Of a stretch of DNA of 37,205 nt, positions 9,048 to 26,243 are shown in pieces. The notes under the pieces were generated by a model. It did not search any database, had not been told where the DNA came from, and was given only the letters and a program-made list of their open reading frames with translations. Within the stretch, counting starts at the first letter, position 1; the number at the start of each line of letters is the position of its first letter. The position numbers and the translations under genes were made by a program. Source of the stretch: Gammaproteobacteria bacterium. Lineage in GTDB: Bacteria; Pseudomonadota; Gammaproteobacteria; Ga0077554; Ga007554. Location of the stretch: positions 1 through 37,205 of the forward strand of contig JAKFXX010000017.1 of NCBI GenBank assembly GCA_021731145.1, read 5' to 3'.

Positions 9048-9210
9048 TCCTAAAAAACTCAGTTATCCACGTTGTCACGAAAAAACACGAAAATATTCAA
9101 TCGCATATCGTGTGTTACTTGCCGCCCATCCGGTGAATTGCTGAGGCGGCCCATGTTTTTGTTTTATTTACTGAGTTTCGTGTTTTTCGCGGACAAAAAG
9201 TTCGATTAAC

Positions 9211-9245
9211 GTAGGTTGGGTCAAGCGAAGCGGACCCAACATTGC
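9211..9245. repeat. GTAGG-TTGGGTC palindromic repeat, copy 2
   Basis: This 35-base unit has a perfect 8-bp stem, GTTGGGTC/GACCCAAC (9215-9222 and 9233-9240), around the loop AAGCGAAGCG. It is followed by ATTGC. It lies between the convergent HIT and kdsD genes. The stretch before it (9050-9210) has an imperfect inverted pair of CACGAAAAAACACG-like sequences and no gene. Confidence 0.8.
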
Positions 9246-11699: not shown

Positions 11700-11796
11700 C
11701 TTTAAATTTATTGCCGCCACTTAGTAATTTTCCGCAAGCGTTTTTTTGTTAGGCCATGCTTGATCGCGACATACGAAAGTCATAGAGATCTCAAAT

Positions 11797-11831
11797 GTAG
11801 GTTGGATCAAGCGAAGCGGATCCAACATTGC
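11797..11831. repeat. GTAGG-TTGGATC palindromic repeat, copy 3
   Basis: This is the same 35-base unit as at 9211, with the same loop AAGCGAAGCG. The stem is GTTGGATC/GATCCAAC (11801-11808 and 11819-11826). The G-to-A change in one arm is matched by C-to-T in the other, so the pairing is kept. It lies between recG and ubiC, ending seven bases past the recG stop. Confidence 0.8.
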
Positions 11832-13981: not shown

Positions 13982-14956
13982 TTACAACAAATCCAGCGGA
14001 CTGTTTACACCCTTGCCACCCTTGTTCAGCACGTGCGTATAAATCATCGTAGTGCTCACGTCATTGTGGCCGAGCAGCTCCTGAACAGTGCGGATATCAT
14101 AGCCAGATTGTAGCAAATGGGTGGCGAAGGAATGGCGCAGGGTGTGCGGTGTAGCGGGCTTGACGATCCCGGCAGCATGTACCGCGCGCTTCACCGCCCT
14201 CTGCAAGCCCTTCTCGTCCGTATGATGGCGCCGCGTAGCATTCGAGCGCGGGTCAAGGGAAAGTCGGCTTGAAGGAAAGACATATTGCCAGCCCCACATC
14301 TTCCCGCCATTGGGGTATTTGCGATTAAGCGCGTTAGGCAGATAAACCTCGCCGTAGCCCGCCGCCAGATCCTCATCGTGCAGCCTCTTGACCCGCTCGA
14401 TATGCGCGCGCAACGGTTCGATCAGCTTAGCGGGGAGCATCGTCATACGATCCTTTTGTCCCTTGCCATCACGAACAATCAACTCGCCGCGCTCAAACTC
14501 AATATCTTTTACCCGCAACCGCACACATTCCAGCAACCGCAACCCCGCCCCGTACAAAAGGCTCGCCATCAACCACTGCGACCCTTCCAGCCGGTCCAGA
14601 AGTGATCTCACCTCGGCATGAGTCAACACCACTGGCAAGCGCTGCGGCACCCTGGCCTTCGTCACGTTATCCAGCCAAGGCAGGTCAATCTCCAATACCT
14701 CACGGTACAAAAACAGCAGCGCACTTTTCGCCTGATTCTGCGTCGAAGCCGCAACATTGCCTTCCACCGCCAAGTGCGACAAAAAAGCCTCCACCTCCTG
14801 CGCCCCCATCGTCGCCGGATGTTTTTTTTGATGAAATAAAATGTAACGCTTAACCCAGTCGAGATATGCACGCTCGGTACGGATGCTGTAGTGTTTTACC
14901 CGGAGTTTCGCCTGGATTTGCTCTAATAATTTGGGTGGATTTTGAGTGTGTGGCAT
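13982..14956 (-). CDS. intI: Integron integrase (IntI-type tyrosine recombinase)
   Basis: This complete 324-residue tyrosine recombinase catalyses cassette recombination between attI and attC sites. Catalytic residues are all present: R140 (GAGLR), K168 (GKGQKDR), H271 and R274 (HTLRHSFAT), H297 (LLGHND) and Y306 (MIYTHV). The IntI-specific extra segment, [20 protein letters not shown] and [11 protein letters not shown] (about 211-245), separates it from XerC/D and phage integrases. ATG 14956 fits the family N-terminus. ATG 14989 would add 11 residues and has GGGA four bases upstream. It is read away from the region where attI and cassettes should lie (15000 onward), and no cassette is recognisable there. 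It shows no frameshift or stop, so it may still be active. Confidence 0.95.
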
Positions 14957-14989
14957 AGAAAAAACCGAAGGCGCGCTAAAAAATAGCAT

Positions 14990-15315
14990 TGGTCCCAATA
15001 AAATAATATTGTCATTGATTTTAAATAAAAAGTGTAGTTAAATCCAGTTTTAGACGACAGTCCGGCATAATTTTAAGTATTTTATTTGTTTTGTTGGCGC
15101 GTATGACGACAGTCGAGCGAGTTGCGAAATTGTCGTCGATTTGGGCTTGATGCGTTTTTACTTCCGTGAAGAAGCGAGACGCAAGGCGATGAGGATGGTA
15201 ATCCACGGTTGCGATGGTGGTCTCGGCGATTTGATGGCCGTTTTGCCGGAATTCGGACAAGCCTGGAGTGCCGCCAGAGGCCGACAGAGCGGTCATTCAG
15301 GAAAAACCGTGCGTG
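14990..15315. other. Integrase upstream region, possible attI, no gene
   Basis: These 326 bases are AT-rich at the left end and hold no convincing gene; a 91-codon minus-strand open frame (15296-15021) matches nothing I know. GTTAAAT at 15037-15043 fits the GTTRRRY core of an attI site in the expected place and orientation. GACGACAGTC occurs twice (15053-15062 and 15105-15114), and the second copy can pair with TGTCGTC at 15131-15137. The right part may be the non-coding end of the decayed IS. Confidence 0.4.
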
Positions 15316-16357
15316 CTACGTAATCAACCGCAGCAACTGATCAGCGGAGAGCACCAGAACGCCAAGCATCAGGTGCGCGACCACCTTGGCGTGGCCGCGC
15401 ACGCGCACGAAGTTCGCCCCGAATTCATCTTTCACAGACGCGCGTTGACGCGCTCGGCCTCATGCGGGGCACAACGCGCTTCACCCCGCCGCGTGGGTCA
15501 TTGTCACCTTGTATGCTTTACGGTGATGTGATCGATCAGCGGTACGTGACCGAGGTCGCGGCTGTGCTGACGGATCAGGGGACTGCAATAGGCGGTGTCC
15601 ATCAGATCGTAGAGACTGGTGACGCGCTGAGCACTGAGCGTGGCGGGCGGCAGGGCGACCTGAGAGTCATGGGTACTGGCGGAGATGAGCGCCGCGCTGA
15701 TGGGGATCTGGCCATCGACCACATCCAGATGCAGCTTGTATCCGATCCACGTTGCTTTGAAGCCTTGGCTGTTGGTCTTGCTGCCCGCACCGCACGCCTG
15801 AGGCAACCCGGCGAGCATGGCGGGCAGGGACAATCCCGGCCGCCTGCCGTTCAATGCGGGTCGGCTCCGCATCTGGGCGTACGTCACCTTTGCATGGACG
15901 GCCACGTTTGCGCTGCGCTGCGGGAGTCGCGGCTTTGGCACGCTTCAGCGGTTTCTCGCGGGCTTCGATGACGGTGGAGTCCCGGGCGATATGGCTGATC
16001 AACTGATCGGACAACTGAGCTTTGATCAGCGCTTCATGGGCTTGTTGCATCAGCCCTTGCGCAGAAAACTCCTTGAAGGCCCGTGAGAACAGGTGCTCAC
16101 CGGGCATCTTTTTCTTGCGCAGATCGAATCTGCACAACTGTCGCAGCGTTGTATCCAACGCCAAGCGGTCCACCAAGGCTACCGTCGTCGGCACCAGCGC
16201 ACGTGCCAGTGCGGCGCGTTCGTGCGGCGGACGTCCGATGAGCCCTCGCCACGACGGCACGAAGCGCTCGATTTCGATCGTCTCCCAGATGCGCAGCAAC
16301 TGCTGCAGCTTTGGAGTAAAAAGAGCGAATGAAATTGCGAAAGACGTTGGCGTAGAT
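15316..16357 (-). pseudogene. Decayed DDE transposase (IS remnant)
   Basis: Pieces of one transposase can be read on the minus strand in several frames. The N-terminal part reads TPKLQQLLRIWETIEIERFV to about 15790. Another frame continues with WIGYKLHLDVVDGQIPISAA, SLYDLMDTAYCSP and LGHVPLIDH to a stop at 15504. The C-terminus (EFGANFVRVRGHAKVVAHLM, ending at 15316) is in yet another frame, reached after an apparent two-base insertion near RVNARL. These motifs are typical of IS4/IS5-like DDE transposases. No start codon remains, and a stretch before RVNARL appears deleted. No matching terminal inverted repeats or target duplication were found, so the ends are approximate. It is inactive. Confidence 0.85.
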
Positions 16358-17992: not shown

Positions 17993-19237
17993 GTGGCTGT
18001 GTATCTTGACCATAATGCGACCACGCCGCTGGACCTGCGGGTGCTGGAGGCCATGCTGCCCTATCTGCGGGATCATCATGGCAATGCCTCCAGTGTCCAC
18101 GCCTATGGCCGGGTGGCGCGCAATGCCATCGACCAGGCGCGCGAGCAGGTCGCCGTCCTGGTCAATGCCCAGTCGTCGCAGGTGGTATTCACCGGCTGCG
18201 GCACAGAGGCCAATAATCTTGCGCTCAAGGGTGTGGCGGCGCGGCTGGCGGCTGGACGTATCGCGGTGAGCGCCGTTGAGCACGCCTCGTTGTTTGGCCC
18301 TGCGCGCGCACTGGAGCGGCAGGGTTGGATCATTGACACCGTCGCGGTAGACGATCAGTGCCGGGTGTCAATGGCTTCATTGTCCGAGGTGCTCAGTCAT
18401 ACACCCCGAATCGTTTCGGTCATGATGGCGAACAACGAAACCGGCACGATTCAGGATATACCCGCCATCAGCGCGCAAGCGCGCCGCGTTGGCGCCATCA
18501 TGCACACCGATGCCGTGCAGGCCGCAGGCAAGATCCCTGTTGATTTTCCTGCCAGCGGCGCCCATCTCATGAGTCTCTCCGCGCACAAACTGTATGGCCC
18601 TAAAGGCGTCGGTGCGCTGATCGTCGACAAGTCCCTGGAATTGGAGCCTTTGCTGCATGGCGGAGGGCATGAAATGGGGCGGCGCGGCGGCACTGAAAAT
18701 GTTGCTGGAATTGTAGGATTTGGCGCGGCGGCGGAGCTGGCGCTCAACGAGTTGGCAGCGCGCAGCACCCATCTGTACAAGCTGCGGGATTTGCTTGAGA
18801 CCGGCTTGCGCGAACTGTCCGGCGTGGTGATCTTCGCCGCACAGGGATGTGCAAGTGCCATGGGCGGTCGCTCCCGGCATCCTGCCTCCCGCGACACTAG
18901 TGCATCCATGCACGTCGCAGGACGCGCAGGAATGGCCGCCGAGCGCTTGCCTAACACGGTGCTGATCGGTGTTCCGGGTATTGATGGTGAATCGCTGTTG
19001 ATGAATCTCGATCGCAAAGGTATTGCTGTTTCCAGTGGTTCGGCCTGCGCTAGCGGCAGCGGCGAACCCAGTCATGTGCTGCTGGCGATGGGCGTCGATC
19101 CCGACTTGGCGCGCCGCGTGATTCGCGTCAGCCTTGGACAGGGAAATACGCCGGAAGATGTGCTGCGGTTCACCGCAGTGTTGCGTGAACAGATTGACTA
19201 TTTGCAGGCCACGGCGCGCAGCGCCTGGAATACGTAG
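17993..19237 (+). CDS. iscS: Cysteine desulfurase (IscS/NifS family) with repeat insertion
   Basis: The PLP enzyme takes sulfur from cysteine, giving alanine and a persulfide for Fe-S assembly. PLP lysine K199 ([10 protein letters not shown]) and the persulfide cysteine C352 ([17 protein letters not shown]) are present. Unusually, residues about 285-315 are not family sequence: they are encoded by a palindromic repeat lying between FAAQ and [10 protein letters not shown]. Without it the protein would be about 384 residues, shorter than E. coli IscS (404) and closer to NifS-like enzymes; it lacks the usual IscS C-terminal tail. GTG 17993 is the start, with GGGTGGG upstream. The insertion lies before the catalytic cysteine loop in a surface region, so activity is probably kept. 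No iscU follows; iscA starts 11 bases later. Confidence 0.93.
18845..18934 (-). repeat. Palindromic repeat inserted in frame in iscS
   Basis: About 90 bases inside iscS are unrelated to the gene family. Their reverse complement aligns over about 45 bases with the bamB-upstream repeat (26193-26243): both share ACGTGCATGGA, then T or C, GCACTA, and a CGCGAG/GCAGGA-like continuation. The element contains GTGCATCCATGCAC and a GTCGC...GCGAC pair. Its length is about a multiple of three and it has no stop in this orientation, so iscS stays open. The exact edges are uncertain by a few bases. Confidence 0.75.
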
Positions 19238-25509: not shown

Positions 25510-26142
25510 GTGGAAGGCTACGTATCAGAAAACGAACAACTCGAATCTTTCAAGCAATGGTGGAAGAAACACGGCAAATTGGTCACTGCGGGTGTAGTGC
25601 TTGGCATAGCCGTGCTGGCGGGCAGCCAATGGTGGCGGCATAATCAAACGGCTCAGTCCGAGGCCGCTTCCGCCGAATATCAGCAGCTTGTGGCGGGCCT
25701 TACCAAGAATAACGCGCAAGTGGTTCAGGAACGCGCATCGCACATCATCAGCCAATATAGCAGCACACCCTATGCCGCGTTCGCCGCTCTGGCACTGGCC
25801 AGGACCAAGCTGGATCAGGGCGACAGTAAATCCGCGCGTACCCAGTTGCAATGGGTGCTGGATCACAGCGATCAATCCGGCGTGCAGAATATAGCGCGGC
25901 TGCGCCTGGCAAGAATCCTGTTCTCCGAAGGGCAGAACGCCCCTGCGTTAGCCATGCTCAATGTCGTCGAGTCTGGCGACTTTGCCATGCAGTACGAGGA
26001 ATTGAAGGGCGATATCCAGGTTGCGTTGGGCAAGCCCAGCGAGGCGCGCGCCGCTTACACCAAGGCGCTCGCCGCGCTGGAGCCGGGCGCTGCCGAGCGC
26101 GCGCAGTTACAGATGAAGCTAGATGACCTTGGAGCCAAATAA
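25510..26142 (+). CDS. yfgM: YfgM family Sec translocon-associated protein
   Basis: The 210-residue inner-membrane protein has one membrane segment near the N-terminus (about residues 23-40, VTAGVVLGIAVLAGSQWW) and a periplasmic TPR-like domain. YfgM in E. coli (206 residues) associates with SecYEG and the chaperone PpiD and is linked to outer-membrane biogenesis. GTG 25510 is the likely start, with GAGGG upstream and the family N-terminus (EGYVSENEQLESFKQWWKKHG) following it. Its stop lies at the first base of the tandem repeat that precedes bamB. Confidence 0.93.
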   Translation: MEGYVSENEQLESFKQWWKKHGKLVTAGVVLGIAVLAGSQWWRHNQTAQSEAASAEYQQLVAGLTKNNAQVVQERASHIISQYSSTPYAAFAALALARTKLDQGDSKSARTQLQWVLDHSDQSGVQNIARLRLARILFSEGQNAPALAMLNVVESGDFAMQYEELKGDIQVALGKPSEARAAYTKALAALEPGAAERAQLQMKLDDLGAK

Positions 26143-26243
26143 CGTGCAGGGATGCACTAATCCCGCAAGCGCAGGACGCGCAGGAGCGGGGAACGTGCAT
26201 GGACGCACTAATCCCGCGAGCGCAGGACGCGCAGGAGCGGGGA
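26142..26243 (+). repeat. Two tandem 51-bp repeats before bamB
   Basis: Two copies start at 26142 and 26193, each 51 bases, and differ at only four positions: three near the beginning and one at 26168/26219. A third copy begins (ACGTG, 26244) and breaks off. Each contains a GTGC...GCAC palindrome and the pair GCAGGACGCGCAGGAGCGGGG. Because 51 is a multiple of three, the frame stays open through both. The last GGGGAA (26239-26244) provides the ribosome binding site for bamB. The unit is related, in reverse orientation, to the insertion in iscS. Confidence 0.85.

Follow-up and report, generated by a model that had tools for sequence, protein, structure and literature searches.

How a cysteine desulfurase came to contain a segment that its family lacks, and what kind of DNA encodes that segment, are the questions raised by this locus. 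The window, by which we mean the whole stretch of 37,205 nucleotides analysed, belongs to genome G000, which was compared with its relatives G001 to G007; through identical DNA, five of these correspond to the uncultured genomes Ga0074134 (G001), NC_groundwater_614 (G002), Ga0077554 (G004), nzgw583 (G006) and SW_26 (G007). The iscS/nifS-like desulfurase ORF occupies positions 17993-19237 of the plus strand and encodes 414 residues, among them the catalytic cysteine in the SGSACAS loop, Cys352 (codon 19046-19048), at the position given by the initial annotation. Pfam Aminotran_5 matches this ORF with an E value of 8e-78, split over two stretches, and the phmmer alignment with solved desulfurases ends at residue 281 and restarts at 313; remoter matches are interrupted at about 283|315, and the insert is absent from the orthologues of G002, G003, G004, G005 and G007. 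The proposal that the segment has no family counterpart and lies between normal flanks is therefore borne out, and no distant homologue was found to carry it at the desulfurase site. Its extent, first placed at 18845-18934, was drawn slightly too narrow: the insert is exactly 102 bp long (18835-18936, codons 281-315) and adds 34 codons. The gene had also been called essential-looking; it is indeed unbroken in frame, and a pairwise dN/dS of 0.13-0.14 against same-genus orthologues, a value that spans more than the time since insertion, looks like that of a maintained gene, but it is not the sole desulfurase of the genome, as contigs C17, C4 and C35 carry additional NifS/IscS-like ORFs. An AlphaFold model of the desulfurase, built from a two-row alignment only, reached a mean pLDDT of 38 and was left unused. 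The effect on partner docking that the initial annotation suggested stays a conjecture.

The insert consists of two 51-bp units, one nested within the other. The inner unit (18866-18916, plus strand, GGTCGC...CACGTC) is the canonical element, matched by the profile with an E value of 1e-15, and the outer unit that carries it is the element in reverse complement, its first part (18835-18865, minus strand, module B') holding the inverted second hairpin and conserved linker and its second part (18917-18936, minus strand, module A') the inverted first hairpin. The corresponding alleles can be read in the relatives: in nucleotide alignment the empty site of five of them reads ATCTT|CGCCGA, the sister species G001 has exactly 51 bp more, the outer unit alone, and G000 has exactly 102 bp more, followed by a 9-bp deletion within a short direct repeat in the flanking DNA. 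Precisely the inner 51 bp (18866-18916) is lacking in G001, so that the simplest order of events would place the outer unit first and the inner unit second; the alleles could also reflect the reverse course, in which G001 precisely lost its inner unit. Both chance similarity and assembly error were rejected because the alleles are common to separate genomes. It is from these alleles that we infer movement of the element, and the empty sites agree with the initial annotation that a mobile small repeat entered the gene in frame; the single insertion that it envisaged has to be replaced by two successive, nested ones. We consider it highly probable that the iscS segment comes from a short, non-autonomous mobile element with a 51-bp unit, present here twice.

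It is, by comparison, very improbable that selection maintains the segment as an adaptation by which the desulfurase tunes the docking of sulfur acceptors. It does precede the strand that runs to the Cys352 loop, and two species have the outer unit, but the identical peptide recurs in the same frame in the unrelated proteins YhdP, an LVIVD-repeat protein and UvrA, two species of the same genus have no segment and G001 lacks its inner half. Three Fe-S assembly genes of a single genome carry the element, namely iscS in the window, nifU (L010) and sufB/sufD (L009), an observation made post hoc.

The 51-bp unit is sharply delimited and structured. An alignment of 102 copies of 51 bp, 95 of them distinct, yielded the consensus GGYCGCTCC-[GGCA TCC TGCC]-TCCCGCGRCACTN-[GTGCA TCCM TGCAC]-RKC, and information falls steeply beyond positions 1-51, save for a following G. 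A closing stem (positions 2-6 with 26-30) encloses an inner hairpin whose arms are 11-14 and 18-21 and whose loop is TCC; the second hairpin pairs 35-39 with 44-48 across a TCCM loop. Both hairpins point in the same orientation, and the linker between them, CACTN, is unpaired, yet its first four bases are almost invariant. Covariation supports these stems as read from the aligned copies: pair 3-29 is standard in 92 of the 95 copies (shuffle maximum 78), pair 37-46 in 94 (maximum 83) and pair 12-20 in 86 (maximum 70), pairs 36-47 and 13-19 also exceed every shuffle, and the counts for hp1 are approximate because a second subtype is out of register in the shuffle test. That subtype has GCGCA TCC TGCGC in place of the inner hairpin, again with a TCC loop (by eye). 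Folded as single-stranded DNA, the inner iscS unit reaches -11.3 kcal/mol (z -3.0) and the consensus a z of -4.0, and the minimum-energy fold is the covarying structure. No Rfam 15 model matched positions 18700-19050 up to an E value of 1. In some units, such as L011 and L231 (valS), an 18-bp repeat of the AGAGCGACAGCGAAGGGT type, a multiple of three, sits in the hairpin loop.

Copies of the element are dispersed through the genome. A 90-bp query returned 42 matches at E <= 1, or 41 apart from itself, and 27 below 1e-6, 26 of them elsewhere, which is far above chance. The initial annotation had aligned the reverse complement of the insert with a repeat before bamB; this alignment was recovered at 26193-26239 (79% identity, E 0.005), and the repeat proved to be a tandem pair of 51-bp units from this family on the minus strand, one lying after the end of a yfgM-like ORF and ahead of bamB (26141-26191) and a second, 94% identical to it, upstream of bamB (26192-26242). 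These tandem units (26141-26242) carry a compensating exchange at stem pair 2-30, C-G in place of G-C (by eye), and the bamB locus of G003 has a nested form (L070).

Similar series of empty and filled sites were found in other genes when genomes of the genus and family were compared. The uvrD gene has 51 bp in G000 and G001 and is empty in four other genomes; site a of valS has 51 bp in G000 and G003, 69 bp in G001 (51 plus the 18-bp repeat in the hairpin loop) and is empty in three; hrcA has 51 bp in G002, is empty in G004 and G007 and in G000 reaches 102 bp, the additional unit being central. Inserts confined to G000 measure 120 bp at site b of valS and 102 bp in a P-type ATPase gene, and at sufB a rearrangement of the flank kept the insert length from being read exactly. 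A cbiA-like gene is empty in G001 and holds 51 bp in G000 and G002; in G003 (L254, G003:C7:1670766-1671336) it holds a tandem pair plus one extra base and the ORF is split, and the element can thus break a gene as well. Within the genus, sites filled in G000, G001 and G003 and empty in G002 occur beside sites filled in G000 and G001 and empty in G002 and G003. Such mixed patterns would fit precise loss; recombination or sorting could also produce them, and these alternatives are retained because the tree of the four species is unstable, with IQ-TREE supports of 44 and 61 that are at odds with FastTree.

These sites also define how the element inserts. Target duplication never exceeds 1 bp (uvrD, valS, hrcA and cbiA), and a G usually follows the insert. 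In nested composites the inner unit begins 19-28 nt into the outer one, and it is inverted in all 15 detectable cases (P 3e-5 against a coin toss), a count to be read with the proviso that direct nests might be lost faster. Nesting within the palindrome that is always inverted, together with tandem duplicates (L131, cbiA in G003 and upstream of bamB), could be produced by template switching during replication plus gene conversion among the hairpins, with no dedicated enzyme and with only in-frame products being kept; we regard this explanation as improbable, given that at unrelated unique sites the inserts are exact blocks of 51 bp whose ends are constant and which lack the homology to the flanks expected of template switching. 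Two further loci (L172 and L186) have copies between the two halves of an apparent CGTC-type REP (ATTCCCGC...GCGGGAAT), again an insertion into a hairpin loop (by eye). In aat, the 51-bp unit lies within another 51-bp palindromic insert, and the latter occurs alone in G003. This insert (ACCGCTCCTGCGTTTCCGGCACTT...CCGCCATCCATGGCGGTC; L243 in G003 and L020 in G000) is a different palindrome, also in frame, and pieces resembling it recur by another copy of the element (L005); judged from these sequences, another intragenic palindrome family probably exists.

The fetched DNA contained 217 distinct copies, and 72 ORFs of at least 200 residues held a copy with at least 45 residues on either side, a list that takes in orthologous insertions and some spurious ORFs. 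Most of the host ORFs scanned are known proteins by Pfam, often with the element between or within the matched domains. Named by our reading of their Pfam families, the hosts include polA, dnaG (twice), uvrA, uvrD, recG, priA, valS, cysS, gltX, prmA, hrcA, sufB, nifU, queC, lpxK, waaA, pcnB, psd and gcvT, and they are mostly housekeeping genes. Frame use is strongly uneven: 24, 19, 17 and 10 of the 72 fall in four frames and one each in the remaining two (binomial P 1e-10 against one third), and the two avoided frames carry TAG when base 34 is A. Length matters as well. The ratio of genic to non-genic copies is 60:44 for 51-bp units, 6:38 for 52-bp units and 0:7 for 53-bp units (Fisher 2e-8), where lineage and length are partly confounded in that the 52-bp copies are mostly from Candidatus Thiodiazotropha; extragenic positions account for almost every unit of 52-54 bp, the 52-bp genic class being small (n=6). 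Because 51 bases are 17 codons, an insertion adds residues and leaves the gene unbroken, and with four of the six frames open, many genic insertions give 17 or 34 additional residues and persist.

What moves the unit? Its exact length, constant ends, conserved fold and conserved unpaired linker, together with the lack of target duplication, point to an enzyme that reads a folded strand. We suggest a model whereby an enzyme supplied in trans would recognize the folded strand of the unit, excise or copy it and join it to the target, in a manner akin to TnpA-REP/IS200-type enzymes or other single-strand nucleases; hosts would then retain in-frame copies at tolerant places and lose the remainder. 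Counts on the two replication strands are 19 and 18, so that there is no replication-strand bias and a strict lagging-strand mechanism is not favoured. A more specific version of the model, that the unit is a REP/REPIN-class element moved by a RAYT (TnpA-REP) tyrosine transposase of the same genome, seems to us rather unlikely, if less so than template switching. Each of the eight family genomes encodes Y1 transposases, G000 having ten such genes, and enzymes of this kind act on short hairpins and recognize folded single strands in a strand-specific manner (PMC8266576). Copies do not, however, flank the RAYT genes consistently: of 30 Y1-transposase loci scanned, only two had a significant copy nearby. 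Nor is copy number tracked by RAYT number, the strand bias is absent, a Y1-transposase gene is itself disrupted by a copy (L025), and column statistics of the 51-bp alignment revealed neither GTAG nor its listed variants adjoining either hairpin. In L025 (G000:C4:158332-158710) the unit splits the gene between HIDYIH and NPVKHG, with a TAG stop at the junction and the empty state deduced from the protein motif. Within the window, three copies of a different, 38-bp palindrome of the GTAGGTTGGGTCAAGCGAAGCGGACCCAACATTGC type (2528-2565, 9208-9245 and 11794-11831) do have GTAG, like classical REPs.

An integron attC site was also considered because the window holds an integrase-like ORF, and it was set aside, as the ends of the unit have no GTT core (by eye). 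The ORF in question (13982-14998, minus strand, 338 residues) resembles an integron integrase-like tyrosine recombinase, judged by eye from its translation; near it, two overlapping ORFs (15504-16299, minus strand) appear to be a frameshifted, decaying IS transposase.

The family extends well beyond this genome. All seven family members examined have copies, from one to more than 40 apiece; G004, G007 and Thiodiazotropha Th1 are copy-rich genomes and G005 is copy-poor. The element was found in 24 of 185 Gammaproteobacteria genomes sampled and, its own genome aside, in 2 of 200 genomes of a whole-phylum sample, both from one family of another class; for distant genomes the copy counts are minimum values, since up to four candidates were scored per genome. 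Candidatus Thiodiazotropha, Sedimenticola, Rhodanobacter and Gilvimarinus were among the matches listed for an exact 27-base core in GTDB species genomes. In Candidatus Thiodiazotropha (L091, L162, L195 and other JAHXHR loci), a 52-bp form occupies the centre of a longer intergenic repeat that is amplified and of which copies without it also exist. As to plasmid and phage carriers, PLSDB and INPHARED gave no match and IMG/VR one exact core match.

Comparison with known systems sets the 51-bp family apart, and we found no description of it in the open-access literature searched, a scope outside which most subscription papers fall. The likeness to Rickettsia palindromic elements noted at the outset holds for behaviour: as the sources describe them, those elements (Ogata et al. 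2000, 2002), about 150 bp long and some with CGTC tags, are likewise small, dispersed palindromic repeats in frame within many unrelated housekeeping proteins, and replication and repair genes are frequent hosts of both these and intragenic REPs (PMC10969869, PMC3733652). By the same descriptions, the present element differs in its 51-bp unit, its two hairpins of the same orientation, its occurrence in Gammaproteobacteria and its exact empty, 51-bp and 102-bp alleles. GTAG and CGTC REPs (Di Nocera et al. 2013, PMC3733652) are also short stem-loops with dimers and grouped forms, some inside DNA repair and tRNA-synthetase genes; their stems and loops differ, however, and most are reported to be intergenic, whereas a large part of the 51-bp copies is genic. 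A CGTC REP is defined by a terminal CGTC, an 8-9 bp stem starting with A-T pairs and a short tail such as CCA; the 51-bp unit ends in C-R-K-C (K = T or G) and its stems are 4-5 bp long and G-C rich. REPINs, in which two REPs in inverted arrangement are associated with a RAYT gene, are similarly short, structured and non-autonomous, and their movement is attributed to a trans-acting enzyme (PMC3116915, PMC8266576), but the hairpins of the present unit share one orientation and consistent linkage to a RAYT gene was not found among the 30 Y1 loci scanned. Unlike those of classical MITEs, the two ends of the unit (GGYCGC and CRKC) do not form inverted repeats, and any target duplication is at most 1 bp. 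Fungal mitochondria contain double-hairpin elements, which are short mobile hairpin-forming units. Repetitive hairpin-forming elements have also been surveyed in sponge mitochondria (PMC2800124). The present element is like these in being short, mobile and hairpin-forming, a likeness by description only to elements that are organellar.

Together, we propose tentatively, and as a view that may well need revision, that the unit belongs to a class-wide, structure-recognized 51-bp family that a candidate single-strand recombinase moves and perhaps precisely removes, that its length is held at 17 codons for life in genes and that it repeatedly adds peptide modules to core proteins of Gammaproteobacteria. 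In-frame palindromic elements are best known from Rickettsia, and here empty, single and nested alleles can be read directly. With an exact unit, a fold backed by covariation and many sequenced relatives, the mobilizer, the target rule and the cost to host proteins become testable. For annotators and protein modellers, inserts of 17 or 34 residues in polA, uvrD, valS or iscS of these bacteria may stem from one repeat.
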